From: an uncultured Bermanella sp.
GTDB lineage: Bacteria > Pseudomonadota > Gammaproteobacteria > Pseudomonadales > Oceanobacteraceae
DNA: 44,235 nucleotides
Reading direction: 5' to 3'
Assembly: GCA_913058575.1 (NCBI GenBank)
Contig: CAJXRF010000048.1
Span: 1-44,235 of the forward strand
Shown here: positions 9,006-44,215 of the stretch, one piece after another
Numbering within the stretch: the stretch's first letter is position 1
Layout: every line of letters starts with the position of its first letter
The notes under the pieces: model-generated
Databases searched by the model: none
What the model was told of the DNA's origin: nothing
The model's input: only the letters and a program-made list of their open reading frames with translations
Position numbers and translations under genes: made by a program

Positions 9006-10442
9006 ATGAAACCGATTCCTTACCTTTGCCGTTTAGCCCTGTGCTCTTCATTGTTAGTGGCAATAAGCCCCATGTCGTGGGGAGAAGCGAATGTTAATAC
9101 CGTTACTAAGGGGGCTAAAAATGTCATTTTAATCATTGGTGATGGCATGGATGACCAGCAAATTACGGCGGCCCGAAACTACCTACACGGGGCGCAAGGG
9201 CAAACCATTCTAGATACCCTGCCAGTACGCTCGGCCGTACAGGTAATAACAGTCAGCAATAATGACCCTACTCAGCCCATATACGTGGCTGACAGCGCCA
9301 ATAGCGCCACGGCCATGGCCACCGGCAATATCACCAGCATAGGGCGTATAGCAACGTCTGCAAAAAGCGATCAAGACTTATCTACCATAATGGAACTGGC
9401 GCAAGCTAAGGGGTTAAAAACAGGGTTAGTGACTACCGCCTCCATTACCGATGCGACCCCAGCCGCCTTTATTGCTCATGTGAACATGCGAGGCTGCGAA
9501 GGCCCTGAGCAAATGGTGAATTATGAAAGCTATGGGGACTTTGTGATTGATTGCCAACAAGATACTTTTCAGCAAGGAGGGCTAGGCAGCATCAGCGAAC
9601 AGCTGGCAAGCAGTGATGTGGATGTTTTATTAGGGGGCGGTAAAAAGTTTTTTAAACAAGCGCCTGAAAGTAAGGGTGAAAAAAATATTTTTAATCAGGC
9701 CAAAAATAACGGTTTTGCCGTGATTGATGATTTAAAGCAAGCAGCAGATGTAAGCGACGATCAAAAACTATTGGGCCTATTTGCCAAGAAACATTTACCG
9801 GTTCGTTGGCAGGGCACTGATGGGCGCATTGCCGAGAAACCGCAATACAGTTTTATGAATTTCTTTCACAAATATTTAGGCTCGGTGACCCTACCTGACA
9901 CCATGAAGTGTGAAGCCAACCCCGAGTTTGCAAAACAAAATACCCCTAACTTGAAAGACATGGCGAGCCTAGCGATTAACCGCTTAGATAACCCTAAAGG
10001 TTTTTTCTTAATGATTGAAAGTGCCAGCATCGATAAACAGTCCCATAAACGTAATCCGTGTGGGCACATAGGTGAAGCGCAGCAATTGTTTGAAACTGTG
10101 CAAGTGGCATTGGATTATGCCAATAAGCAAGGCAATACCTTAGTGATGATCACCGCCGATCATGGTCAGGCAGCGCAAATCATTCCCGATGGCAGTTTGT
10201 TTTCAGCTTACGGGGCGCCCATTGCCACGCCGGGTTTCGTGGCCCGTATTGAAACCCCTGAGGGTGGGGTGTTAGCCATGAACTATGCCACCAATGATTT
10301 CAGCCATGAAGAACATACAGGGGTGAATGTGCCGTTTTTTGCTAATAAGCAGGTGGTGGGGGAGAGTGCTGAGAAGGTGATTAAACCTATGTTGCAACAG
10401 ACGGATATTTTTGGAATTAGTCGGGTGTATTTGGGGTTGTGA
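9006..10442 (+). CDS. phoA: Alkaline phosphatase, PhoA family
   Basis: This is a periplasmic phosphomonoesterase that releases phosphate from organic esters. It has a 26-residue signal peptide ending near MSWGEA, the first metal Asp in IIGDGMDD, nucleophile S97 in VADSANSATAMATG, the substrate-binding Arg region NMRGCEGP, metal ligands in MIESASIDKQSH and ITADHGQ, and a final His in EEHTG. Its 478 residues match the E. coli enzyme. The ATG is preceded by a modest AAGG ribosome site and a TATAAT promoter. The gene stands alone, divergent from sdaA. No Pho regulon gene is adjacent. Confidence 0.95.
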   Translation: MKPIPYLCRLALCSSLLVAISPMSWGEANVNTVTKGAKNVILIIGDGMDDQQITAARNYLHGAQGQTILDTLPVRSAVQVITVSNNDPTQPIYVADSANSATAMATGNITSIGRIATSAKSDQDLSTIMELAQAKGLKTGLVTTASITDATPAAFIAHVNMRGCEGPEQMVNYESYGDFVIDCQQDTFQQGGLGSISEQLASSDVDVLLGGGKKFFKQAPESKGEKNIFNQAKNNGFAVIDDLKQAADVSDDQKLLGLFAKKHLPVRWQGTDGRIAEKPQYSFMNFFHKYLGSVTLPDTMKCEANPEFAKQNTPNLKDMASLAINRLDNPKGFFLMIESASIDKQSHKRNPCGHIGEAQQLFETVQVALDYANKQGNTLVMITADHGQAAQIIPDGSLFSAYGAPIATPGFVARIETPEGGVLAMNYATNDFSHEEHTGVNVPFFANKQVVGESAEKVIKPMLQQTDIFGISRVYLGL

Positions 10443-10505
10443 TTTTAGCGTTTCACTTTGAAAAGGCAGCGGTATTTAGTTTACTGATGAATAACGGCTA
10501 GTACG

Positions 10506-10663
10506 TTTTTCCTTTCTGGGGACAGGTATTTGCTCCATGCAATGCCTGCATTCCCTACATCCTTGTAGGTTGAAGTCCCCAGCCCCCTCTTTTCGGCCAC
10601 GAGCAGCCTCACGACCTTGTATATTTAATTAGGGCTTAGTTTTTGAGGCTGCTCAAGGCCGAA
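10506..10663 (+). repeat. Dispersed constant-loop hairpin element, copy 1
   Basis: The element opens with a T-rich lead (GTTTTTCCTTT). CTGGGGAC (10516-10523) then pairs with GTCCCCAG (10575-10582) around a 51-base insert that itself holds the palindrome CCTACATCCTTGTAGG. A second hairpin follows with a two-part stem: TTCGGCC (10592-10598) with GGCCGAA (10657-10663), and GAGCAGCCTCA (10601-10611) with TGAGGCTGCTC (10644-10654). Its 32-base loop carries TATATTTAATTAG. Two more copies at about 30.8 and 43.5 kb keep this loop core but use unrelated stem sequences. It lies about 60 bases after phoA. Function unknown. Confidence 0.7.
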
Positions 10664-10964
10664 GGGTGGACTGGTTCTGGTATGAAACTCGTTTAAAGCT
10701 CAATGATATTTTAAGGTCCTGCATAAATGTGCTGGCCGTTTTAAACCTATTTGTGCAAAATCAGGCTTTTAATAAAAGCATGCCCATTAGCATAAAGAGT
10801 AGTGAATACCCTATAACGTAATGGCCATTGGTTCGTACTTACACTGACTAATGGGAAAGGTATTTACACTTTTTCTTAGGTCCATAAAACGTTATTCGGT
10901 TTTCAATAATATTGCTGTTTTGATAATAATAGTATACGCACGATATAAATTATTAGGTTCTTAC
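10664..10964. other. Intergenic stretch without a supported gene
   Basis: Between the repeat and the likely start of the exported orphan I see only AT-rich sequence. An upstream in-frame ATG at 10851 extends the next ORF, but that extension is not signal-peptide-like and has no ribosome site. A promoter is presumably here; no convincing boxes were identified. Confidence 0.3.
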
Positions 10965-15436: not shown

Positions 15437-16468
15437 CTAACCGCCTAGCATGGCCAAATGGCGAGTGGTGCCTGTGTTGTTACTTTGCAAATAGTGAGTT
15501 TCTGGTTTGGTTTGTAAGCCTTTATCCACCGCATCACTTAATAAGCTTTCTAAGCCTGGCATTAAATAAGGGCGTAAATCTAATCCCCCCTCGCCAAATA
15601 AACATAAGTGAAGTTTGCCCAAAGAGCTGATGCGTAAGCGGTTACAGGTGGTACAGAAATCCTTGCTATAAGGCATGATTAAACCAATGCTGCCTTGGTA
15701 ATCTGGGTGTAGGTATTCATTGGCGGGGCCGGCATTTTTTTTGCGAACTTTTTGTATCCAACCAGATTTTTCCAAACGCTGTTGAATTTCTTCGCCGCTC
15801 ACGTGATTAGCGTGAAAGTATTCGCGGTTGTCACTGGTTTCCATGAGTTCAATAAAGCGCAAGGAAATAGGGGTATCTTTGATCCAGTTTAAAAAGCGTT
15901 CAAATTCATTGAAGTTGTAGCTTTTAAGCAAGACCGCATTCACTTTAAGGGTTTTAATACCCAGCTCTAAGGCTTTATCTAGCCCGGCCATGATTTCTTT
16001 TAGGCGATTATGACCTGTGATGGTTTCGAATACTCTGGGGTCTAGGCTGTCGATGCTGACATTTAGGGCATCAAGGCCTGCGTCTAGCCATGGGCCAATG
16101 TATTCCCCCAACTTGTAGCCGTTGGTGGTCATGGCCACGGTTTGAATGCCAGGGATGTTTTTAATGGTGTGAATGATCTCAACCAAGTCTTTTCGCACAC
16201 TGGGCTCGCCGCCGGTGATGCGCACTTTATTAATGCCTTTTTGGGCAAAAACCGTGACCACTTGCTTGATTTCTTTAAGGCTAATAGGGGTTTGCTTAGT
16301 TTCGCACTGATAGCCGTCGGGTAAGCAGTAATTACAGCTGAAGTTACACACATCAGTAATAGACAGGCGCAAGTAGCTGAATTGACGTTGGTGACCGTCT
16401 TGTAACGCAAGGTACGACGGTGCACCGGGCTCCCATGAGGGTAGGCCCGTATCTAATGGTTTGTTCAC
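15437..16468 (-). CDS. moaA: GTP 3',8-cyclase MoaA (radical SAM)
   Basis: MoaA performs the first step of molybdopterin synthesis, radical rearrangement of GTP. The N-terminal radical SAM cluster is CNFSCNYC, followed by the RITGGEP segment. The second, substrate-side cluster is in FCTTCNRLRISSLGKLHLC (given as CTTCNRLRI ... LHLCLF), and the protein ends in the conserved Gly-Gly (LAMLGG). The start is GTG at 16468, preceded by GGAAAGG. It is the first gene of the moaA-mobA-moaB-moaC-moaD-moaE operon and has a probable Moco riboswitch directly upstream, so the operon should be repressed when cofactor is plentiful. Confidence 0.96.
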   Translation of the reverse strand: MNKPLDTGLPSWEPGAPSYLALQDGHQRQFSYLRLSITDVCNFSCNYCLPDGYQCETKQTPISLKEIKQVVTVFAQKGINKVRITGGEPSVRKDLVEIIHTIKNIPGIQTVAMTTNGYKLGEYIGPWLDAGLDALNVSIDSLDPRVFETITGHNRLKEIMAGLDKALELGIKTLKVNAVLLKSYNFNEFERFLNWIKDTPISLRFIELMETSDNREYFHANHVSGEEIQQRLEKSGWIQKVRKKNAGPANEYLHPDYQGSIGLIMPYSKDFCTTCNRLRISSLGKLHLCLFGEGGLDLRPYLMPGLESLLSDAVDKGLQTKPETHYLQSNNTGTTRHLAMLGG

Positions 16469-16474
16469 TGTGAC

Positions 16475-16570
16475 ACCTTTCCAAAATAAGGGGAGGCTGC
16501 AGCATTTCTATTGCAACCCATCGGCTAGGCTCCGTTCCTTCCATGGTGAACAAGGTTTAGGAGTGATAGC
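16475..16570 (-). ncRNA. Probable Moco riboswitch (Moco RNA motif) in the moaA leader
   Basis: On the minus strand the leader ends with a stem around AATAGAAATGCT, then GCAGCCTCC, about ten bases, then GGAAAGGTGT just before the GTG start. From memory the E. coli moaA Moco motif has the same succession: stem, AGAAATG, CCTCC, then GGAAAGGTGT. Upstream GGAGCCTAGCC and GGGTTGC blocks fit the rest of the motif. Because the ribosome site lies in the conserved 3' end, control of translation is likely. The comparison is by eye, so the exact 5' boundary is uncertain. Confidence 0.7.
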
Positions 16571-16828
16571 TCGGTGCTTTGGTGAGCCCCTTTAAATGAA
16601 GGGCTTACCGGTTAATTATGAGCCTATCTTATAAAAATTAAGGCCGCTTTAGAATACGGGTCTATGGGTATAGGCGTACTCATAAGGAAGTAGTTTATGC
16701 TGGCTTGGCCCTTAATGTCGAGCTTGATGGCAAATTGCCTTAACCCATATAACCGATAGGTCTTATTATAGCTAGGTTCAACGCTCTATCAGCTATTCAA
16801 AAGCCATAAGTTCACATACTGAAATACA
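16571..16828. other. Non-coding stretch upstream of the moa operon
   Basis: This region separates the moa leader from the porin terminator and presumably holds the moa promoter (minus strand). Inverted GGGCTTACCGG/GGTGAGCCCC-like blocks at about 16580-16611 could fold in the leader RNA. No ORF with a good ribosome site was seen. Confidence 0.3.
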
Positions 16829-29665: not shown

Positions 29666-30277
29666 ATGTTATTACCAAAACGGGTTACTACTATGTTGGT
29701 AGCCAAGGCCAAGCCAGCCTTAAACCGTGCGCATAATGTAGTGTTTGAAAATCTGAAAACGTCGTCATTAACACCTATGTTGGTAGCCAAGGCCAAGCCT
29801 GCTTTAAGCCTAGCCCACAAGCTTGTGCCTACAGCTCTGCAAAATCAGTTGGTATTACAGGGCATGAAGCGGCTAGCGAAAGAATTTTTGGAAAATGGCG
29901 AAATGGATTTTATGGCGGGTAAGGTGGCTCGTTTGCACATTAAAGATATGGATATAAGTTTCTTTTTTACGCTGCAAGATGAAAGTAACAGTCCCAGCCA
30001 AGACAAAAAACTCATCATTCTAGCTAGCCTGCCACAACCTCCTGAACCTAATGTCACCTTCAGCGCCACACTCGAAGCCTTTGTATTATTGGCCTCACAA
30101 AAAGTAGATCCAGATACGTTATTTTTTAATCGCAGCCTGCAAATCAGTGGCGATACTGAGTTGGGCTTAGAAATAAAAAACCTAATTGACCAATTTGATA
30201 TTCAACTTCTACACAAGCCCGTAGGGCAAGTATTAAACCTGTGGTCGCAGCAACTATTGGAGAACCAACATGCCTAA
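29666..30277 (+). CDS. ubiT: O2-independent ubiquinone accessory factor UbiT (SCP2 lipid-binding)
   Basis: UbiT has a sterol-carrier-protein-2 fold and binds the hydrophobic intermediates used by UbiU-UbiV. Seen here are the SCP2 core (about 70-190, including MKRLAKEFLENGEMDFMAG, FNRSLQISGDTELGLEIKNLID given in part as NRSLQISGDTELGLE) and the gene position divergent from ubiU-ubiV. The N-terminus is odd: residues 10-37 and 38-65 are a tandem duplication, each starting MLVAKAKPAL, with the first 23 bases identical. The gene overlaps the next one by eight bases. Confidence 0.9.
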   Translation: MLLPKRVTTMLVAKAKPALNRAHNVVFENLKTSSLTPMLVAKAKPALSLAHKLVPTALQNQLVLQGMKRLAKEFLENGEMDFMAGKVARLHIKDMDISFFFTLQDESNSPSQDKKLIILASLPQPPEPNVTFSATLEAFVLLASQKVDPDTLFFNRSLQISGDTELGLEIKNLIDQFDIQLLHKPVGQVLNLWSQQLLENQHA

Positions 30278-30743
30278 CACCGCCCGAGATTTACGTGATA
30301 TCACCTCAGAGTTAAATGTTGAAAACTTATTAGAAGACGACCACCAGCGTATCGACCAAATGTATCAAGACGTATTAGATGCATTGATTAATCAAAAACC
30401 CCCCATGAGTCAGCATTTATTGTTTAAGTTGTTTAAAAGCGCTTTACTGCGTCATTTACATTGGGAAGAAAAAGTTTTGTTTCCCATGTATATCGAATTC
30501 AGTGGTAAGCAGGGCTCTATTCCTCAGTTGCATTTGCAACACAAGGAAATCATGGACTACCTTACCGAGTTAGAAGAAGATTTATCCAAAGGCCTTGAGA
30601 AAAGTGCCTTTGAATTATTAGGGCAGTATTTAGCCCATCATAATGAGTTTGAAGAGAAGAGCTTGTATCCGGCATTTGAGGCACTGGATAGTAAGGAGCT
30701 GAAGGATAAGTTGGTGTTGGCTATTAGTCGTGGGTTTAAATAG
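30270..30743 (+). CDS. Hemerythrin-like (HHE) diiron protein
   Basis: This 157-residue all-helical protein has the HHE pattern of metal ligands: H in EDDHQRID, H and E in LRHLHWEEKVLFP, H in LQHKEIM and the H/E set in YLAHHNEFEEKSLYP. Such proteins bind O2 or sense oxygen, NO or iron at a diiron site. It overlaps ubiT by eight bases and so shares its likely FNR-controlled promoter. A role in protecting or gating the O2-sensitive UbiU-UbiV clusters is inferred from context only. Confidence 0.87.
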   Translation: MPNTARDLRDITSELNVENLLEDDHQRIDQMYQDVLDALINQKPPMSQHLLFKLFKSALLRHLHWEEKVLFPMYIEFSGKQGSIPQLHLQHKEIMDYLTELEEDLSKGLEKSAFELLGQYLAHHNEFEEKSLYPAFEALDSKELKDKLVLAISRGFK

Positions 30744-30811
30744 GGGTCTTTATCGCAAATTGTTTTTTAGTGTTCTAAATTCGAGCAATATTTCTGCTGT
30801 ATCTTAGTCAG

Positions 30812-30924
30812 ATGTTTTTCTTTTCTGGGGGAGTCCCCAGCCCCCTTTTCGTTCATCTTTTAGCCTTGCTTCCTTATATATTTAATTAGCCTCTTTCGTA
30901 TAGATAGGGCTTGCAAGGCTAAAA
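30812..30924 (+). repeat. Dispersed constant-loop hairpin element, copy 2
   Basis: This is the most compact copy. GATGTTTTTCTTTT leads into CTGGGG (30825-30830) paired with CCCCAG (30835-30840), then CCCCTTTTCG. The second stem follows: TTTTAGCCTTGC (30858-30869) pairs perfectly with GCAAGGCTAAAA (30913-30924). The 43-base loop carries TATATTTAATTAG and CTCTTTC, shared with the other copies, although the stem is unrelated to theirs. It lies about 70 bases after the hemerythrin gene on the same strand. Confidence 0.75.
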
Positions 30925-31431
30925 AATTCACAGGTTGGTATCGGGTCGTTTCTGGTTGTTCCAAATGGCCATGACGTGGTATTGATTGGTATATTAGTTA
31001 TGCTGCTTTCTTAACTTAAATTATGCGGAAGATTAAAGCGAGATTGAAATCAGGGTTAAATAGCCTGACTCAGCGCCTTTAAATGATAATAACCTAGGGC
31101 TAGCGTGACTGCTGATTGTGTCAAATTTAAAATTGTTAGCGACGTCTTTAACTGATAAATCCCTGATAAAAGATCGTGAATAAAAATAAGGCGAAAAGCT
31201 CGTAAATAGCTCATGAATTCGAGTCAAAGTCGTTTTAATGTGTACTAAAAAAAACGAATTTTCAAAGGATTAGAAGCTGAGAATTTATGTGAAAGGCGCA
31301 ATAAAAGATAATGTTTATTGACCAAATAGGCTGTAGGCGTGATGATGACAGCCCTTAAAAATTGAGTCGCAAAAGACGTCGCCTGAAAAGATGTCTAAGT
31401 GATGTAGAATAAACTGTTAGCATTCAATAAT
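30925..31431. other. Intergenic region without a supported gene
   Basis: About 500 bases after the repeat contain only short frames lacking ribosome sites. A minus-strand frame at 31033-31227 has no family resemblance and no start signal. I see no tRNA-like cloverleaf, strong hairpin or direct repeat here. Confidence 0.35.
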
Positions 31432-31863
31432 ATGAAAATAATTTACAAACTTTTAAAATGGACTTTTATTGGTATTTCTTTGTTCGGGGTAGCTATTTTA
31501 CTTTTAGGCTTTGGCTTTATGTGGTTTTGGAACTCTCAATCTGTAAACTCGCTAAGTGAAGCAAAGGAACTATTAAAAAAACACAGAGATTTCGAATATA
31601 GAATTATGATAAATGAGTGCTCTAAGTTATTCGCACTTGACGAAAATATAACTCTTTCTCGTAATGAAATCCCAATAAATCTTAAAAGTATTTCTCCAGA
31701 ATACATAAGAGTTTCAGGTTATAGCTGTGAGATCAATTTATTTAAAGTACCAGGTAAAGGTATCGGCTACTTTGTAAGTAAGACACAGGATGGAAGCTTT
31801 AAAATTAGCTGGCATGATTACTTTGAAAGCTGGGATAGCCATGAAATTAATATTGTGCAATAA
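31432..31863 (+). CDS. Small membrane-anchored hypothetical protein
   Basis: I do not recognise this protein of 143 residues. It has one N-terminal TM helix (about 10-33, GISLFGVAILLLGFGFMWFW) after a basic start, then a hydrophilic domain of about 105 residues with two cysteines (NECSKLF and GYSCEIN) that could form a disulfide if periplasmic. Codon use is AT-rich. It starts an accessory region of small genes and fragments; no operon partner follows. Confidence 0.6.
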   Translation: MKIIYKLLKWTFIGISLFGVAILLLGFGFMWFWNSQSVNSLSEAKELLKKHRDFEYRIMINECSKLFALDENITLSRNEIPINLKSISPEYIRVSGYSCEINLFKVPGKGIGYFVSKTQDGSFKISWHDYFESWDSHEINIVQ

Positions 31864-31905
31864 AGATGCTAATAAAGCCATTAAGCTTGACACACAAAAA
31901 AACGT

Positions 31906-31932
31906 GTGGCGGACAGCATTTTAGACCGCCAC
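31906..31932. other. Hairpin after the small membrane protein
   Basis: GTGGCGG and CCGCCAC form a perfect seven-base stem around 13 bases, next to a CACAC/GTGTG pair. No T tract follows. GGCGTTAAATG just downstream resembles one integron attC core, but the matching partner core was not found. Confidence 0.35.
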
Positions 31933-31938
31933 TTATGA

Positions 31939-32154
31939 CAGGCGTTAAATGACAAGTATGATTTAAAAAATTACCGTCTCTATGCTGGAAAAGGAATATC
32001 TTACTATTCGAATTTTAAAGAAGCCAAGGGTGATTCAAAGTATTTTATGCCTGATAAAGCTGAACTTCGTATAGAAATACTGGTAGGGATTGCTCCAAGT
32101 GAAGCTGATTTTTAAGCCTATGAATATGAGAATAACCAATGGGCACCATCATAA
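31939..32154 (+). pseudogene. C-terminal gene fragment with an in-frame stop
   Basis: A frame without any start codon reads protein-like sequence (NYRLYAGKGISYYSNF, KGDSKYFMPDKAEL, EILVGIAPSEADF) up to TAA at 32113-32115. It then continues in the same frame with AYEYENNQWAPS before a second stop at 32152. The start is missing, since a stop lies directly upstream at 31936. This looks like the tail of a decayed gene hit by a nonsense mutation. I do not recognise the family. Confidence 0.45.
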
Positions 32155-32786
32155 ATATTGATGCTGGTGGCAACTTAACAAGTTTAGGCACACGACTCCT
32201 GAACTTCACCGATAATGCAGGCACCTTTTTAGTCCTAAAGAAACAGATTATGAGTAAAGAACTAAATAAAATATCAAAGTACTTCAGCTATTTACTTCGT
32301 CATGAGCCTGAATCGATTGGTTTATCTCTTGATGAGAATGGTTGGGCGAGTATTGATGAGCTGATCCAGAAAACAGACGACTTCGAATTGAATAACGATA
32401 TCATTGATATAGTCGTTGAAACTAATGATAAGAAAAGATTCAGTATTAGCAAGGATAGGCTTCATATTAGGGCAAACCAAGGGCATTCAATTGTTGTTGA
32501 TCTGGAATTGATTCCAATTCAGCCTCCTCAATATCTAGTTCATGGGACTGCAGAAAGGTTCATCGAAATAATTAGAGAACAGGGACTTAACAAGATGCAA
32601 AGGCATCATGTGCATTTATCGGAGTCCCAAGCTGTCGCAAAAAATGTGGGATCTCGATATGGTAAGCCTATCCTTTTAAATATTGCGACTAAAGAGATGT
32701 TTGATGACGGCTTTATATTCTATAAATCGGCTAACAATGTTTGGTTAGTTGATGGCGTGCCACCAAAGTACATTAAAGAAGCGTAG
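32139..32786 (+). CDS. kptA: RNA 2'-phosphotransferase, KptA/Tpt1 family
   Basis: KptA/Tpt1 enzymes move an internal 2'-phosphate of RNA to NAD, yielding ADP-ribose 1'',2''-cyclic phosphate. The likely start is the ATG at 32250 (MSKELNKISKYFSYLL), giving 178 residues; the 37-residue upstream extension has no family counterpart. Family features are YFSYLLRHEPESIGL, NGWASIDEL, YLVHGTAERF and HHVHLSES, with the catalytic Arg/His set in place. Bacterial copies are sporadic and their substrates are uncertain, since bacteria lack the tRNA-splicing route that makes 2'-phosphates. Its setting among fragments suggests horizontal gain. Confidence 0.9.
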   Translation: MGTIINIDAGGNLTSLGTRLLNFTDNAGTFLVLKKQIMSKELNKISKYFSYLLRHEPESIGLSLDENGWASIDELIQKTDDFELNNDIIDIVVETNDKKRFSISKDRLHIRANQGHSIVVDLELIPIQPPQYLVHGTAERFIEIIREQGLNKMQRHHVHLSESQAVAKNVGSRYGKPILLNIATKEMFDDGFIFYKSANNVWLVDGVPPKYIKEA

Positions 32787-32806
32787 TAATAATAGACTGT
32801 TGGTAA

Positions 32807-32828
32807 CATAACAACCTTGGGTGTTATG
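32807..32828 (+). other. Hairpin after kptA
   Basis: CATAACA and TGTTATG form a perfect seven-base stem with an eight-base loop 21 bases after the kptA stop codon. It lacks a T tract; a weak terminator or an RNA-stabilising hairpin is possible. Confidence 0.35.
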
Positions 32829-32946
32829 TAGCCGATAGGAATTAAATGTTGGAATCACAGAGGTTTAGCCTTGCCTTTTTCCAAGGAAATGATAATAAAT
32901 TCTGAGCTTATTTATTCTTACAATATAGTGTCTCTGGAAAACAAAC

Positions 32947-33573
32947 ATGAACTCAACCCTATATTACATTCACGACCCCATGTGTAGCTGGTGCTGGGGT
33001 TATCGCCCTGTGTGGAATGCATTACAACAACATCTTCCTGTTGCTATAAGAATTGAATATGTGGCAGGGGGATTGGCCCCCGATTCAGATCAGCCCATGC
33101 CAAAGGAAATGCAGAATGCCATTCAAGGGCATTGGCACAATATAAAAGCCAAACTAGGCACTGAGTTTAATTTTGATTTCTGGCGAGAAAACACACCGCG
33201 CCGCTCCACTTATATGGCTTGTCGGGCAGTAATTGCCGCTAAGTTGCAAGGTTTTGAAAAGCAGATGCTAGAAGCCATCCAGTGTGGTTACTATTTGCGG
33301 GCCTTGAATCCTTCTGATATAGAGGTTTTAAATCAGTTGGCAGGGGAGTTGTGTGCCTTAAAGCCAGAGTTAGATTTAGCAAAATTTTCAGCGGATCTTT
33401 TGGCACTTGATACACAAAAAGAATTTGAGCGACAATTGCAGCTGGCAAGAGCATTAACCATTCAAGGGTTTCCATCATTAGTGCTTGAAGTTAAAGGTCA
33501 GCGCTATTCTATAGCCATTGATTATAGCGATTACCAAAATACATTGGCGCAAATAGTGGAGTATGCAGCATAA
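32947..33573 (+). CDS. DsbA-family thioredoxin-fold oxidoreductase (cytoplasmic)
   Basis: This 208-residue protein has no signal peptide, and its active site CSWC (residues 13-16 in DPMCSWCWGYRP) is followed by a DsbA-type helical insertion. The cis-Pro loop is in IQGFPSLVLE. It belongs to the FrnE/DsbA-like cytoplasmic group, in which members act as thiol oxidoreductases or isomerases of unknown partner. It stands alone, with about 160 bases upstream and a compact downstream gap. Confidence 0.88.
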   Translation: MNSTLYYIHDPMCSWCWGYRPVWNALQQHLPVAIRIEYVAGGLAPDSDQPMPKEMQNAIQGHWHNIKAKLGTEFNFDFWRENTPRRSTYMACRAVIAAKLQGFEKQMLEAIQCGYYLRALNPSDIEVLNQLAGELCALKPELDLAKFSADLLALDTQKEFERQLQLARALTIQGFPSLVLEVKGQRYSIAIDYSDYQNTLAQIVEYAA

Positions 33574-33659
33574 AAAGGGCTAGTCTAATTTTACATTAAC
33601 TCAATTTGTTAGCAGAGCATTTCGCGTAGTGATTGAAACTTCTCTAAATTAAGGAAAGC

Positions 33660-34253
33660 ATGAAAAAACTATTTTTTATTTTAATAGCACTTGGCGTATT
33701 CTGGAAATTTTACAATTACACCGGTTCTGTATCATTGGGGCCGGGTGTGATGGTAAGTGAAGTACCGCTGCAAGAAAGTGTCTCTTCAACCATTACCCAT
33801 AAGTTTGATGATTACACCATTAATGAAATTGCCACTTTTCATATTAAAGCAAAAGTCCTTGCTAAGAAAAACTACTATCTGGGCCGTGAATCTGATCTGT
33901 CACCTACTGATCTAGCACTAGGTTGGGGGAATATGTCCGATGAAAGTATTCTAGATAAAATTGAAATATCACAATCGAATCGCTTCTATTTTTGGCGTGT
34001 GGAATCCTTTCCCATACCTCGCAAAGAAATAGAAACCCACAGCGCGAATATGCACCTTATCCCTGCCGATGAATCAGTAGCAAGAATCATTGGTGAAATT
34101 CGAAACGGCGATATTGTTGAAATTTCAGGTAGCCTAGTAAACGTAACCGCTCAAGATAATTGGCGTTGGAGGAGTTCACAAACACGTAACGATACTGGAA
34201 AGGGCGCTTGTGAATTGATTTTAGTGAAGAATCTTTATATCGCCACGCCTTAG
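33660..34253 (+). CDS. Exported or membrane-anchored hypothetical protein
   Basis: The 197-residue protein begins MKKLFFILIALGVFWKFYNYTG, a basic start plus one hydrophobic segment (given as MKKLFFILIALGVFW), likely an uncleaved anchor or signal. The mature part contains GPGVMVSEVPLQ, SDLSPTDLALGWGNMSD, YFWRVESFPIP and NMHLIPADE. This set of motifs recurs in uncharacterised small exported proteins of several bacteria, as far as I recall. An AAGGAA ribosome site precedes the ATG. Function unknown. Confidence 0.75.
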   Translation: MKKLFFILIALGVFWKFYNYTGSVSLGPGVMVSEVPLQESVSSTITHKFDDYTINEIATFHIKAKVLAKKNYYLGRESDLSPTDLALGWGNMSDESILDKIEISQSNRFYFWRVESFPIPRKEIETHSANMHLIPADESVARIIGEIRNGDIVEISGSLVNVTAQDNWRWRSSQTRNDTGKGACELILVKNLYIATP

Positions 34254-34760
34254 AGGCACTTCTATTAATAGCTTGAGACTAACCAAACATCCAACCTAGT
34301 GGCACTATTCAATTAATGCCAGCTTCAAGGGGATAGTTTACTCCTTAATCATTGTATGGCCTGTTGTGCGCGCGGTGCCTTTTAGTGTGGGGAGATAAGC
34401 TATTCGGGTAATTTTATGAACATAGACGTGGTTGAACGCTGACACAGATTATTTAGTAGCACTGTTTTGTCGAACATATATTTTAAAGACGGTGAGTTGC
34501 CAGAAGCTGACGCGTTAGCTTTTCAAACTAACTATGAATCAAAGCGAGTATAGTGGTATCAGCTTGTGTCTTTAGATTTGGCGCTAATTTAGTGAAAGTA
34601 ATTTATTAATTCTCACTATTATGGATGTCTAATTAGTTCACTCAGAAGTGCTCTAATGTCGGTGACTTATTAAGTATTTGTATAGGTCTTCGATTCTTGG
34701 TTATTACTTAGACCAGCATAACCCCTCCCCAAAAAAAATGAGTTTATGGAGTCAGGACTT
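34254..34760. other. Gene-poor stretch with a possible decayed fragment
   Basis: No intact gene is visible. At 34443-34592 one frame reads LFSSTVLSNIYFKDGELPEA and then ALAFQTNYESKRV, meets TAG at 34551, and continues in frame with WYQLVSLDLALI to a second stop. It lacks a start codon and could be another remnant of the decayed prophage whose tail fragment follows. Support is weak. Confidence 0.25.
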
Positions 34761-36688: not shown

Positions 36689-37996
36689 GAGGCTGTAGCT
36701 AATTCTGTGTAACTGCCTATCATGAAAGCCAGAAATGGCTAAGGATAGGCTGCAATGAACAAAGAAGCATTGGAAGCCTTTGCCCGCGAAGCGGCCAAAG
36801 GCATTAAAACAGAAGAAGACCTAAATGAGTTTCGTCAGATGCTCACTAAAGTGACGATTGAGCACGCCCTAAATGCTGAGCTAGATGATCACTTAGGTTA
36901 CGAAAAACACGTCGCATCAAGCAACTCAAACAAGCGTAACGGCACCACCAGCAAGACACTTCGTACTGAAGATGGCCAATTTCAGCTCGATACCCCCAGA
37001 GATCGTGATGTCAGTTTCGAGCCCAAGATTGTTAAAAAAAGCCAAACTCGATTTACCTCAATGGACGATAAAATTCTGTTTTTATACGCCCAAGGTATGA
37101 CCACCCGAGAGATCGTTAAAACCTTCAAAGAGCTCTATGGTGCTGATGCTTCGCCCTCGCTAATTTCTAAAGTGACCGACGCGGTTATCGAGCAAGTTAT
37201 CGAATGGCAATCCCGCGAACTAGATGCAGTTTACCCCATCGTTTATCTTGACTGTATCGTGCTTAAAATTCGTCAGGACAAGCAAGTTATTAACAAAGCC
37301 GTTTACTTGGCCCTGGGTGTAAATATGGACGGTCACAAGGAATTATTGGGCATGTGGCTTTCTGAAAACGAAGGCGCTAAGTTCTGGTTGAACGTGCTTA
37401 CCGAACTACAAAATCGTGGCGTGAAAGATATTCTTATCGCCTGTGTAGATGGCCTCAAGGGCTTTCCTGATGCGATTAACACTGCCTTCCCTCAAACTCA
37501 AATACAGCTGTGTATCGTACATATGGTACGAAACTCAGTGAGATATGTACCCTGGAAAGATTACAAAGCAGTGACATCGGACTTAAAGAAAATTTATCAA
37601 GCTAGTACTGAAGAAAGCGCTTTAAAAGCGTTGGATAATTTTAGTGAAAAATGGGACGGGAAATACCCGCAGATTAGCAAATCGTGGCGAATGCATTGGG
37701 ACAATTTAAATACGCTATTTAATTATCCTGCAGACATTCGAAAAGCGATTTACACCACCAATGCCATCGAATCACTTAATAGTGTCATCCGTAAAGCAAC
37801 GAAAAAGCGCAAGGTATTCCCGACCGATGACGCGGCTAAAACAGTTATATACTTAGCAGTACGCCAAGCTTCGGAAAAATGGACTATGCCCATCAGAAAT
37901 TGGAAAGAGGCCTTGAACAGATTTACGATACTGTTCGAAGACCGCTTGAAGGACTATATTTAAAACGGGCAGTTACACAGGATGGTTTACAGGCCC
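36689..37996 (+). mobile_element. IS256-family insertion sequence
   Basis: The element is about 1308 bases with 29-base imperfect inverted repeats. The inner 13 bases (CTGTGTAACTGCC at 36705-36717, GGCAGTTACACAG at 37968-37980) match perfectly, and nine of the 16 outer bases agree. It carries one transposase gene. The usual 8-9 base target duplication is missing: the left flank reads GAGTAGTAA and the right GCAGCAATT. This suggests recombination or deletion after insertion. The right end abuts repeat copy A. Confidence 0.85.
36755..37963 (+). CDS. IS256-family (mutator-type) DDE transposase
   Basis: The intact 402-residue transposase begins with a helical N-terminus (EHALNAELDDHLGYEKH) and is followed by the N-terminal RNG-type region (SNSNKRNGTTSKTL). 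The catalytic core has the first Asp in YPIVYLDCIVLKIR, the second in ILIACVDGLKGFP with CIVHMVRNS, and the Glu in TTNAIESLNSVIRK. Length and motifs are normal, so it could be active. It ends 33 bases before the element's right end. Confidence 0.95.
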   Translation: MNKEALEAFAREAAKGIKTEEDLNEFRQMLTKVTIEHALNAELDDHLGYEKHVASSNSNKRNGTTSKTLRTEDGQFQLDTPRDRDVSFEPKIVKKSQTRFTSMDDKILFLYAQGMTTREIVKTFKELYGADASPSLISKVTDAVIEQVIEWQSRELDAVYPIVYLDCIVLKIRQDKQVINKAVYLALGVNMDGHKELLGMWLSENEGAKFWLNVLTELQNRGVKDILIACVDGLKGFPDAINTAFPQTQIQLCIVHMVRNSVRYVPWKDYKAVTSDLKKIYQASTEESALKALDNFSEKWDGKYPQISKSWRMHWDNLNTLFNYPADIRKAIYTTNAIESLNSVIRKATKKRKVFPTDDAAKTVIYLAVRQASEKWTMPIRNWKEALNRFTILFEDRLKDYI

Positions 37997-41910: not shown

Positions 41911-42393
41911 ATGTTTAAGCGCCGCTCTAACAGCAATACCTTGCCACAGCTAGGGGAGTTGGAACTCAGCGTCATGGAGGAGCTTTGGCAGCGACCCGAT
42001 CAGCCCGCCAAGTCGGTTCATAAACGCTTGGCTGACAGCCAAAAACGCAGCCTTTCAACGGTGCAATCCACGGTTGAGAGATTGCATCGCAAGCAGTTAT
42101 TGCAGCGCAGTAAAGAGGGCCATGCCTATGTATACCGCGCGCGGGTGGCGCGTACAGAATTAATGGGCCGATTAATTGGTGGGGTTATTCGCCAACTGCA
42201 CACCGGCAGTCTTGATCCGATTCTTTCTGGCTTTGTGGATTTTGCCGATCGTATGGATGAAAAAACTCTGGACCGCTTAGAGCAGATGATTCAGCTACGC
42301 AAACAACAGCGTGAGGAAAAAGCTGAGTGCCAGAGTGAGGGCTTAGGTGAGGACCAGGGTGAAGGCCAGAGTGAGGAAAAGCGTGATGATTGA
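41911..42393 (+). CDS. BlaI/MecI/CopY-family transcriptional repressor
   Basis: The 160-residue protein has a winged-helix N-terminus with LPQLGELELSVMEELWQRPD, KRSLSTVQSTVERLHRK and the wing EGHAYVYRARVAR, and a helical dimerisation part. These repressors dimerise on operators and are inactivated by proteolysis or ligand. The C-terminal tail is unusual: it is acidic and Gln/Glu/Gly-rich (ECQSEGLGEDQGEGQSEEK), built from a short degenerate repeat of GAG-containing codons. The gene overlaps the next by eight bases. An AGAGGTG ribosome site precedes the ATG. Confidence 0.92.
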   Translation: MFKRRSNSNTLPQLGELELSVMEELWQRPDQPAKSVHKRLADSQKRSLSTVQSTVERLHRKQLLQRSKEGHAYVYRARVARTELMGRLIGGVIRQLHTGSLDPILSGFVDFADRMDEKTLDRLEQMIQLRKQQREEKAECQSEGLGEDQGEGQSEEKRDD

Positions 42394-43309
42394 ATTAATC
42401 GCCACCGCCACACTCACCGGATTTGGACTTTGGTTACTGTTTGGTGTAGTCAGTATTGCCAGCTACCCGCTTATTCGAAACCGCCTGCGTACACTGCACC
42501 CGGCTCAAAGCAGCGTGCTGTTATTGTGCTGGTTGGCCCTGCCTTTTGTGGGCAGCTTGTTTATTAGTTGTCTTTTGTACTGGCCAGAACTGGCAATATG
42601 GCTGATTGATCACCACTGTCACTCCGACAGCTGTCGCCAACACGCACCATCAACACCCTGGGCGTTATTGCCAGCCATGGGTTTGTTAGCTTGGGTCGTA
42701 TTTCGAGTGTTGCGCTGTTATAAGTTGCAATACTTACCGGCGCGGCGGCTAGCCAAGCAGTTAATGCGCGTCGCGATTCCTCGGGGTAATTATTATGAGT
42801 TGTCTTCCCCCGTGCCAACGGCTTTTACTCTGGGTTGGCTAGCTCCCAAAATTTTTATAAGCCAAGGGCTAAAGGAACAGTGTGATGCCAACGATATCGC
42901 CTGCATTCTTGATCACGAACAAGGCCATCGCCAACGCCAAGATAATTTACGTCATTTATTGGCTTGGCTATTAACGGCACCGCTGCCAAAGCGCTGGGTG
43001 CAGAACATGCTTGATGATCATAGACTTAGCTGTGAGCAAGCTTGTGATTTAATTGCCTGTGGTCGCGTACCACCGGAAAGTGTCGCCGAGACTCTGTTGC
43101 GTGTGGCACGTTTACAAGGTGAGCAGTCTAGCCCTGCAGGCAGCAGCGCTTTTGCAGATAATCATACCGAGCTGCGCATTCGTGCATTGCTTAGTGAACC
43201 ACCTACGCAACTTAGTGCTAGCGCATTGATTGCTATGAGTGTTGCGCTTTTGGTTTTGTTGATGTTGTTAGTGAACCCGGTTCACTATTTTTTGGAGCAC
43301 TTTCAATAA
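42347..43309 (+). CDS. BlaR1-like M56 membrane metallopeptidase
   Basis: The likely start is the ATG at 42386 (MIELIATATLTGFGLW), overlapping the repressor stop, giving 307 residues. It has about four TM helices (8-28, 42-66, 88-106 and one near the C-terminus, 285-302) and the zinc motif HEQGH (H177-H181) in CILDHEQGHRQRQD. Unlike true BlaR1 it ends after the peptidase part and has no penicillin-binding sensor domain, so it does not sense beta-lactams directly. It most likely cleaves or triggers loss of the adjacent repressor and so derepresses the divergent TonB receptor. Confidence 0.9.
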   Translation: MRTRVKARVRKSVMIELIATATLTGFGLWLLFGVVSIASYPLIRNRLRTLHPAQSSVLLLCWLALPFVGSLFISCLLYWPELAIWLIDHHCHSDSCRQHAPSTPWALLPAMGLLAWVVFRVLRCYKLQYLPARRLAKQLMRVAIPRGNYYELSSPVPTAFTLGWLAPKIFISQGLKEQCDANDIACILDHEQGHRQRQDNLRHLLAWLLTAPLPKRWVQNMLDDHRLSCEQACDLIACGRVPPESVAETLLRVARLQGEQSSPAGSSAFADNHTELRIRALLSEPPTQLSASALIAMSVALLVLLMLLVNPVHYFLEHFQ

Positions 43310-43488: not shown

Positions 43489-43645
43489 AGCTAGATGTTT
43501 TTCCTTTGAAGGGGAGACCCCTTCCACTTCGGCAACTGCTCCCTGCGTTGCTCTATCTTTTGCATCCATGCAGTCGCCCCTTTACTCCCCTTGTGGCCTT
43601 TGGTCATTTATATATTCAATTAGGCTCTTTCAATAAAGGCCACAA
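43489..43645 (+). repeat. Dispersed constant-loop hairpin element, copy 3
   Basis: GCTAGATGTTTTTCCTTT leads into GAAGGGG (43508-43514) paired with CCCCTTC (43518-43524), then about 65 bases with smaller palindromic parts. The second stem is TTGTGGCCTTT (43591-43601) with AAAGGCCACAA (43635-43645). The 33-base loop holds TATATTCAATTAG and GCTCTTTC. As in the other copies the loop is kept and the stem is different but perfectly paired. Confidence 0.75.
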
Positions 43646-44215
43646 AAAGTCGCGATTTATTATCGACTCGCGTTTGGTGCGGTAAAAAGAATAACAGAAC
43701 ACGAAAATACAGGGTATTTGGCGTGTTGTATTTTATTTTTCTACCACTTTTTAAATAGCCTTACAGTAGTCCTTACCTATCTTTACTTTAAAGTAGAAGT
43801 TTTTAATTTAAATTTACCAAAATGAGTTTTGTTGTTTGATTAAGCAAGGCTGGCACTTTAGACTGTGTCCGAATTTTACATGGCGCTTGGCTTGTGCCGG
43901 TTATTTCAATAGAAATGGGATACCGAGACCCCATCGTTATATTAGATATACGGCTTGCGCATTATTAAAGCTGTTATGGCGTATTAAAAGAGTTTTTGAT
44001 TTGAAAGGCTTTCGGTAATCTGCCTTTGGGCTTAGTCTTAAAATCGGTAATTATGTTAATCTTACCAGCCAAAACATTGTCATCGTTTAAGTTAATATCT
44101 TAATCGTTAAAGTAATAACAAGGATTGTTTGTCTCGGCCCTTATGCCTCAGCCTCACAGTCAAACATTAAAATTAAATATATAAATCGGTATCGCATAAC
44201 AAACGGTAGCAGCAA
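43646..44215. other. Gene-free right end
   Basis: This is AT-rich sequence. A 60-codon frame at 43836-44018 starts with a non-ATG codon, lacks a ribosome site and has no recognisable motif, so I do not call it. No tRNA or strong promoter was seen. Confidence 0.3.

Follow-up and report, generated by a model that had tools for sequence, protein, structure and literature searches.

The analysis of a 44,235-nucleotide stretch of DNA from an uncultured Bermanella sp. (hereafter the window; contig CAJXRF010000048.1 of assembly GCA_913058575.1) reveals three copies of a dispersed, structured repeat, and these belong to a real repeat family that is so far known in one genus. Judged from the sequences, the family, the covariation of its stems, its position at gene ends and its integron context are all apparent, and in a minority of loci the element lies at the outer edge of what appears to be an integron platform without an integrase, in the order element, attI, cassettes and, in some cases, an inverted element. 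The reading that we favour, tentatively and with rather less than even confidence, is that the element is a structured, structure-selected 3'-intergenic repeat edging some of these platforms as a boundary module, with the integrase acting in trans. The integron context is new, being absent from an earlier note on the window made from its letters alone.

Repeat family and element anatomy

The window is the entire contig C48 of the source assembly G000 (5.72 Mb, 186 contigs); G, C and L numbers are our handles for genomes, contigs and loci. The earlier note had placed three plus-strand loci with a common plan at 10506-10663, 30812-30924 and 43489-43645, and all three are present as placed and with that plan. 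Delimited with the covariance model R1, which was trained on eight copies, all from the source genome, they are as follows, P1 being the G-rich hairpin (GGGG...CCCC) and P2 the long hairpin with outer and inner stems.

10505..10669, + strand: element copy 1 (R1 76.3 bits, E 1.5e-16); P2 arm GAGCAGCCTCA at 10601-10611 with 10644-10654, outer GGCC/GGCC, core 10620-10632
30812..30940, + strand: element copy 2 (R1 match 30814-30940, 80.9 bits, E 8.2e-18); T-rich lead, P1 30825-30830/30835-30840, C-rich linker, P2 30855-30869/30913-30927, tail
30877..30889, + strand: conserved core TATATTTAATTAG of copy 2
43497..43662, + strand: element copy 3 (R1 82.9 bits, E 2.3e-18); P1 GAAGGGG/CCCCTTC, P2 arm TTGTGGCCTTT at 43591-43601 with 43635-43645, core 43611-43623

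The shared plan runs from a lead, GCCAGCACGGTTTTTCTTT or GCTAGATGTTTTTCCTTT, through P1, a C-rich linker, P2 and its apical motif region to a tail that ends in GTTATCG or GGTATCG in most copies. The layout holds in all three window copies, two of which carry extra sequence in the hairpin 1 or linker region: about 50 nt inserted in hairpin 1 of copy 1, and a CATCCATG-type repeat within the linker of copy 3. The core measures approximately 105-165 bp in the model matches and is longer in G005 and G008 through conserved flanks, and some copies have a second repeat type inserted in their unpaired parts. Such a second dispersed repeat (TGCTCCCTGCRTTGCTCTA...TGCATCCATGCA) was seen at about 43525-43575 of the window, at about 5020-5075 of L065 and in L206, within some element linkers and upstream of the attI site on C93.

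Each stem pairs with its own partner arm at all three loci, as had been proposed (in copy 2, 93% over 15 nt), while the description of the stems as mutually unrelated did not hold: TTTTAGCCTTGC, TTGTGGCCTTT and GAGCAGCCTCA have a common GCCT core, and copies with TTTCGGCCTTT and GTGCGACCTCA elsewhere link them. The loop described as constant is so within the window, where the motif occurs in all three copies; elsewhere it is replaced in some copies (for example by TCTCTTATGGGGAGA in L111), and the apical region may hold a weak third hairpin, P3, which in L118 is a perfect CTCAT/ATGAG. The exact loop motif TATATTYAATTAG occurs at five places in the 5.72 Mb genome, four forward and one reverse, compared with 0 and 2 for the reversed-pattern control. 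The window accounts for three of the five, and the other two lack the element plan. As a family marker the loop motif alone was rejected, one mismatch giving 131 places vs 98 in the reversed control.

Searching the source genome with R1 gave 16 matches at E ≤ 3.4e-4, the next appearing only at E 1.1, and a search over 93 relatives gave 44 matches at E ≤ 0.01 in five genomes (G000 16, G005 14, G008 11, G002 2, G007 1). These five are all members of one, Bermanella-containing, genus of which nine members were examined, and none of the 84 genomes outside it has a match. Among 390 genomes sampled from the order, the source genome alone matches at E ≤ 0.001, under a stricter filter that retains nine of its own 16 copies. 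A 20-base piece of class A, one of six P2 classes (A-F) sorted by eye, matches two of these genus genomes, Bermanella sp. CPC64 and the metagenome-assembled genome HF-Din24. A DNA search with one copy returned further copies clustered on C109, C90, C10 and C74. Two additional copies were recognised by blastn: one carrying inserts at about 4060-4330 of L126 (1.2e-26 against another copy; R1 E 0.0024 with filters off), and a diverged one at L051:10855-11075 (1.4e-4; R1 E 0.81). Tandem arrays mix P2 classes, as in L109 (A-C-D-B, spaced 262-543 bp), L110 (A-B-A) and L111 (A-B-B). Contigs G002:C103, G000:C109, G000:C172 and G000:C80 end at or near an element or attI; assemblies thus seem to break at these sequences, and the copy and platform numbers are lower bounds.

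A phage, plasmid or viral origin was examined and rejected, a class A copy giving by blastn one chance-level phage match (E 0.6) and no plasmid, and a 17-base pattern finding no viral contig.

Stem covariation and folding strand

Pairing rather than stem sequence is conserved across the copies, which supports selection for paired structure, as the earlier note had argued from the window copies. For P2, 12 of the 44 copies, all of class A, were aligned, the remainder being excluded as belonging to classes not reliably alignable with each other. Of the 240 cells in the two P2 stems plus the putative P3, 92.9% pair, compared with 85.1% after shuffling and 28.6-46.3% when slid; changes on both sides occur in 9 of 20 pairs against 4.5 after shuffling, and the covariation score is 0.284 against 0.143. 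Each of these three measures exceeds all of 500 shuffles, controls which leave the kinship among copies in place; a fourth, counting further pair types, is ordinary (reached in 198 of 500). The inner P2 stem has both sides changed in 6 of its 10 pairs. P3 is weak in pair count (83.3% paired, with one pair open in 7 of the 12 copies), and RNAalifold recovers both P2 stems and not P3.

These observations were further strengthened by P1, which was parsed in 38 of the 44 copies, 31 of them distinct. The pair adjoining GGGG/CCCC is T-A in 11, C-G in 11, A-T in 4 and other in 5, and is Watson-Crick in 26 of 31 against 10.9 in shuffled pairings (0 of 2000 shuffles reach this). The second flanking pair is Watson-Crick in 17 of 31, likewise reached by none of 2000 shuffles, and the third has no covariation signal (1260 of 2000). 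As the compensation is seen among paralogous copies inside one genome, a single inherited change is an unlikely source. The earlier note had let its reading depend on whether more copies could be found by covariance-model search and whether their stems were compensated; both proved to be so.

On the question of whether the selected fold acts as RNA or as single-stranded DNA, the wobble counts point both ways. On the given strand, the unpaired cells of the class A P2 helices are four A.C or C.A, three purine-purine and no G.T, a pattern that corresponds to wobble on the complementary strand; three of the C.A mismatches share one position and may be related. The second P1 pair leans the other way, with T.G in 7 copies vs C.A in 2. 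A stricter search across all 44 copies gave 7 AC, 4 GT and 6 other, several off-register, and a broader count (AC 81, GT 75, other 71) includes falsely extended helices. The copies form a natural set of paired-change hairpins for asking in which of the two forms the selected shape acts.

Position at gene ends

All three window copies lie downstream of a plus-strand gene in the same orientation, as first described, and this generalises to the family. With genes called as open reading frames (ORFs) of at least 130 aa plus tRNAs, a same-strand gene precedes 28 of the 33 copies that stand first in their array (one-sided p 3e-5, with each orthologous locus counted separately). The count started from 46 rows, the 44 matches plus L126:4060 and L051:10855 (both same-strand), of which 13 were dropped: nine tandem followers and four without an upstream gene in the available sequence. 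The five exceptions are L051:13955, L066:4659, L065:2582, L065:4983 and L121:6435; by eye, L066:4659 has an own-strand gene remnant just upstream. The downstream gene is on the same strand in 18 of 28. The genes preceding the window copies are these.

9006..10442, + strand: alkaline-phosphatase-family gene (PF00245, 1.2e-69), upstream of copy 1
30270..30743, + strand: hemerythrin-domain gene (PF01814, 2.7e-15), upstream of copy 2
42347..43309, + strand: M56 peptidase (BlaR1-like) gene (PF05569, 8.5e-8), upstream of copy 3

The last forms, at 41911-43309 (+), a pair with a BlaI-like repressor gene (PF03965) directly before copy 3. In L066 (4659-7344), two elements, each after a similar gene-end remnant (an efflux-pump C-terminus by eye), flank foreign-looking sequence, and the arrangement looks as if gene end and element had been duplicated together.

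At orthologous loci, where gene names are our reading of translations by eye, elements are kept while the intervening genes differ. This is the case in the interval from lysC-csrA-tRNAs to maf in G005, G008 and G002 (L110, L113, L114), and in the intervals after rplQ (L109, L112) and beside zapE (L111, L118) in G005 and G008. After rplQ in G002 the contig ends in an apparent element lead; in G000, G001, G003 and G004 no element is found there by eye or by R1 with filters off, the sequences being too diverged to define an insertion junction. A tRNA integration hot spot as the general cause was rejected, tRNAs standing at 3 of 19 scanned loci, all one orthologous site. A retron was likewise set aside: a short reverse transcriptase gene with a YMDD motif (RVT_1, 1.2e-21) lies downstream of an element in G008 (L112:6666-7433, - strand), at this single locus only.

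The gene-end position bears on a rival explanation that we regard as doubtful, namely an RNA-level 3' element: the copies would belong to the transcripts of the upstream genes, either as modules of the 3' untranslated region (3' UTR) or as small RNAs, and their constant single-stranded parts would be the functional ones; they might be Rho-type terminators acting through the C-rich linker. The same-strand bias speaks for it, as do the combination of covarying stems with conserved unpaired parts (linker, apical motif and tail) and the T.G excess at the second P1 pair. It is countered by the P2 mismatches, by tandem arrays in which as many as four different classes follow a single gene, an unusual arrangement for a 3' UTR, and by the lack of any intrinsic terminator (GC stem plus T-run) in window positions 30500-31500, the one stretch scanned. 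Nor does any Rfam family match the element at gathering score across the window or at E ≤ 1 in L109, L110 and L118, and the earlier note likewise had no named family to offer for this layout.

Integron context

Beside copy 2, the element is followed by a series of integron-like parts.

31401..31419, + strand: attI-like site, GATGTAGAATAAACT followed by GTTA, 460 nt downstream of copy 2
31432..31863, + strand: first cassette-like gene, starting 12 nt after the attI-like site; its 143-aa product has no Pfam family at E 0.001
31868..31950, + strand: degenerate attC-like site (GCTAATA...GGCGTTAAAT), recognised by eye only and in none of the attC scans
32139..34253, + strand: possible further cassette genes, for a KptA/Tpt1 RNA 2'-phosphotransferase, a DsbA-like thioredoxin and an unknown protein of 197 aa

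The core of the attI-like site differs at 1 of 19 bases from a site 490 bp upstream of the integron integrase at G000:C36, while its surroundings do not align to C36 and align at 78% over 144 bp to G000:C28. The degenerate attC-like site folds on the bottom strand at -21.3 kcal/mol with no clean single hairpin, and no clear attC separates the possible cassette genes at 32139..34253. Downstream of the copies at 10506 and 43489 there is no attI match within the window, the latter lying only 573 bp from the contig end.

An integron integrase scores over the cut-off in 7 of the 9 genus genomes, a cut-off that is decisive, as all 14 control genomes give matches below it; in the source genome it lies at three places (C110, C80, C36), with fragments below the cut-off. 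The G008 integron (L186) has what we take, from its motif, to be a LexA-like box, an attI (...GATTAAAAT followed by GTTAGGC), attC-like sites and, by eye, a first cassette of GmrSD type resembling the cargo of L126. At L123, the 317 bp spanning the LexA-like box and attI match this integron at 90% identity, and the element occupies the expected start of intI.

In the window, L110, L113, L114, L122 and C109 (a diverged element), an attI-like site of one of two types follows the element with its orientation unchanged, the patterns giving 0 matches in 444 kb of shuffled sequence; L126 has the same arrangement by eye. Element, attI and genes with attC-like sites occur together at L113, L114, L122 and L123. 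The attC scans were home-made and run on draft contigs: two stricter scans overlooked clear sites, and one gave 2.7 matches per 3.5 kb of shuffled sequence, its lone matches being accepted only if convincing by eye. Across the scanned loci, among them L113, L114, L122, L123 and L051, 24 attC-like sites were found vs 3 in one shuffle, not all of them near elements and some probably false. At these five named loci the scans place attC sites without a neighbouring integrase, the arrangement termed a cluster of attC sites lacking integron integrases (CALIN). An inverted element stands at the far end of L110, L113, L114 and L126, and by eye an attC-like end abuts it at L110 and L113.

In the favoured reading, the folded element would be the boundary module of these integrase-less platforms and by origin a non-autonomous mobile repeat, which might spread the attI platform or insulate it from the neighbouring gene, and the attI and attC sites would be worked in trans by an integron integrase whose gene lies at another place in the genome. 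A bolder form of this proposal, which we consider unlikely, is a distributed integron, in which a single integrase, or a few, would serve in trans many scattered attI platforms, with the repeats as portable, structure-selected edges that establish some of them at gene 3' ends. If a reading of this kind is right, cassettes would be stocked at several dispersed attI sites rather than confined to one array by the integrase, and some of these sites would be bordered by a repeat selected for its shape.

Tightness of the link

Among 26 element loci, ten have attI or attC (window 30812, C109, C25, L110, L126, L127, L113, L122, L123 and L114; C25 and L127 by scan matches alone) and four are cut by contig ends (w43489, C172, L119, L128). 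Several results weigh against a boundary role. The other 12 loci (w10506, C10, C90, C74, L109, L111, L125, L112, L118, L120, L121, L124) have neither attI nor convincing attC in the scans. R1 finds no element at any of the ten integrase places checked, out of 12 over the cut-off, several of them cut by contig ends, and G001, G003 and G004 carry the integrase and no element. A search for one attI type, using a pattern built on its sites in the window, C109 and C36, gave 17 matches in 5 of the 9 genomes (reversed control, 3). Eight are in the source genome, including the integrase-linked C36 and, with two mismatches, C56 and C113. The five integrase-less matches with at most one mismatch have a clear element upstream only in the window; that of C109 is diverged (R1 E 0.81, blastn 1.4e-4), C28 and C122 have none, and at C93 a putative copy was read by eye without support from R1 or blastn, the blastn matches falling in a nested repeat. 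For the nine attI matches outside the source genome, R1 detects no element in the available flanks (G007:C296 is integrase-linked; G003:C302 is cut at 37 bp). Element-attI spacing varies from approximately 60 to 480 bp, so that element and attI are separate modules, and the link could reflect a common preference for 3' intergenic space. Five of the 44 copies, examined with flanks for arms of at least 14 nt, have no terminal inverted repeats, the arms present being those of P2 in the window and of a small hairpin further upstream in L125, and no target-site duplication was shown, the rplQ comparison being too diverged for a junction.

Orphan attI platforms are more widespread than the element. 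Across 15 attI loci (one cut), an ORF of 66-425 aa begins within about 70 nt at 14, in a 200-nt search window, and an attC-like site lies downstream at nine. Several attI sites in other genomes have different hairpin-rich sequence upstream. L193, L195, L198 and L199 (G002, G005) and L200 and L202 (G007) each have an attI without integrase in the examined flanks and without element. The sequence before it is again hairpin-rich, resembling GTCACGTGACGGTGTATTAAGATAAATGGTC in G002 and G005, and an ORF comes after it, with an attC-like site in five of the six.

This distribution bears on a second rival, which we judge rather unlikely: a selfish structured repeat resembling the repetitive extragenic palindromic (REP) and enterobacterial repetitive intergenic consensus (ERIC) sequences, accumulating in safe 3' intergenic sites that platforms also use, so that the link would be indirect. 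Copies that are dispersed, in tandem and nested with other repeat types would be expected of it, as would the roughly half of the loci that lack integron parts and the orphan attI sites of one type, most of which have no element. It sits less well with the orientation bias, with the element in place of intI at L123, and with the constant element-attI order and orientation wherever both were found by pattern.

Comparison with known elements

By the tests made, the element is not an attC, a REP, a miniature inverted-repeat transposable element with terminal inverted repeats, a terminator or an Rfam family. Like attC sites, it keeps its structure while the stem sequence drifts, a trait established for attC according to the available text of PMC9024848; it differs in lacking the R' GTT box, in its hairpin plan and in not standing at cassette ends. 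That it is itself an unusual attC- or attI-like recombination site recognised as folded single-stranded DNA we consider very improbable. Class A does carry GCCTAAC, an RYYYAAC box, at one P2 foot, but the opposite foot has AAATGGC or similar instead of the partner GTTRRRY box; by eye, the other classes have neither box, canonical attC scans touch elements only off-register, and separate attI and attC sites lie beside the elements.

REP sequences, bacterial interspersed mosaic elements and ERIC resemble the element in being palindromic repeats dispersed between genes, and in having insert variants in some cases. The element differs in having several hairpins, in stems exchanged by paired changes within one genome, and in requiring no gene of the REP-associated tyrosine transposase (RAYT) type. 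A REP/RAYT system was rejected: PF01797 occurs in 4 of the 9 genomes, is absent from the element-bearing G002 and G008 and is present in the element-less G001. The idea that the complementary strand encodes a small conserved peptide (M-R-x-L-S-T-A-like) was also discarded, the putative start varying and the frames stopping early at differing places, as judged by eye.

CALINs are established and, in the available text of PMC9024848, proposed as degraded integrons; the accessible part of PMC12444791 describes them in Xanthomonas at recurrent chromosomal loci, with mobilisation in trans. The platforms here resemble them in carrying attC cassettes away from intI at recurrent loci and differ in the attI-like site before the cassettes at several loci and the structured repeat beside some. 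If the favoured reading is true, the CALIN picture would extend from degraded integrons to dispersed, possibly live platforms. The integron mobilization unit (IMU) and other Tn3-derived miniature elements (TIMEs), as presented in the accessible portion of PMC13367494, are likewise short repeats without coding capacity that bound a cassette-bearing segment, those of the IMU being inverted; theirs are Tn3-type terminal inverted repeats, which are lacking in the five copies examined here, and the copies here diverge by compensatory changes. Among the open-access papers listed, none deals with attI platforms that are dispersed and bordered by a structured repeat, which is not proof of absence.

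Other features of the window

A similar inverted sequence (ACTAACC...TAGTGGCACTAT...CAGCTTCAAGG...GGTTAGT, by eye) occurs near attI platforms at window 34279-34345, L205 and L207, and may represent an attC-like site or the end of an insertion sequence. A Mutator-family transposase gene (PF00872) lies at 36755-37963 (+), downstream of the cassette-like genes, and a molybdenum/tungsten cofactor riboswitch (RF01055, 60 bits) is found at 16458-16588 (-).
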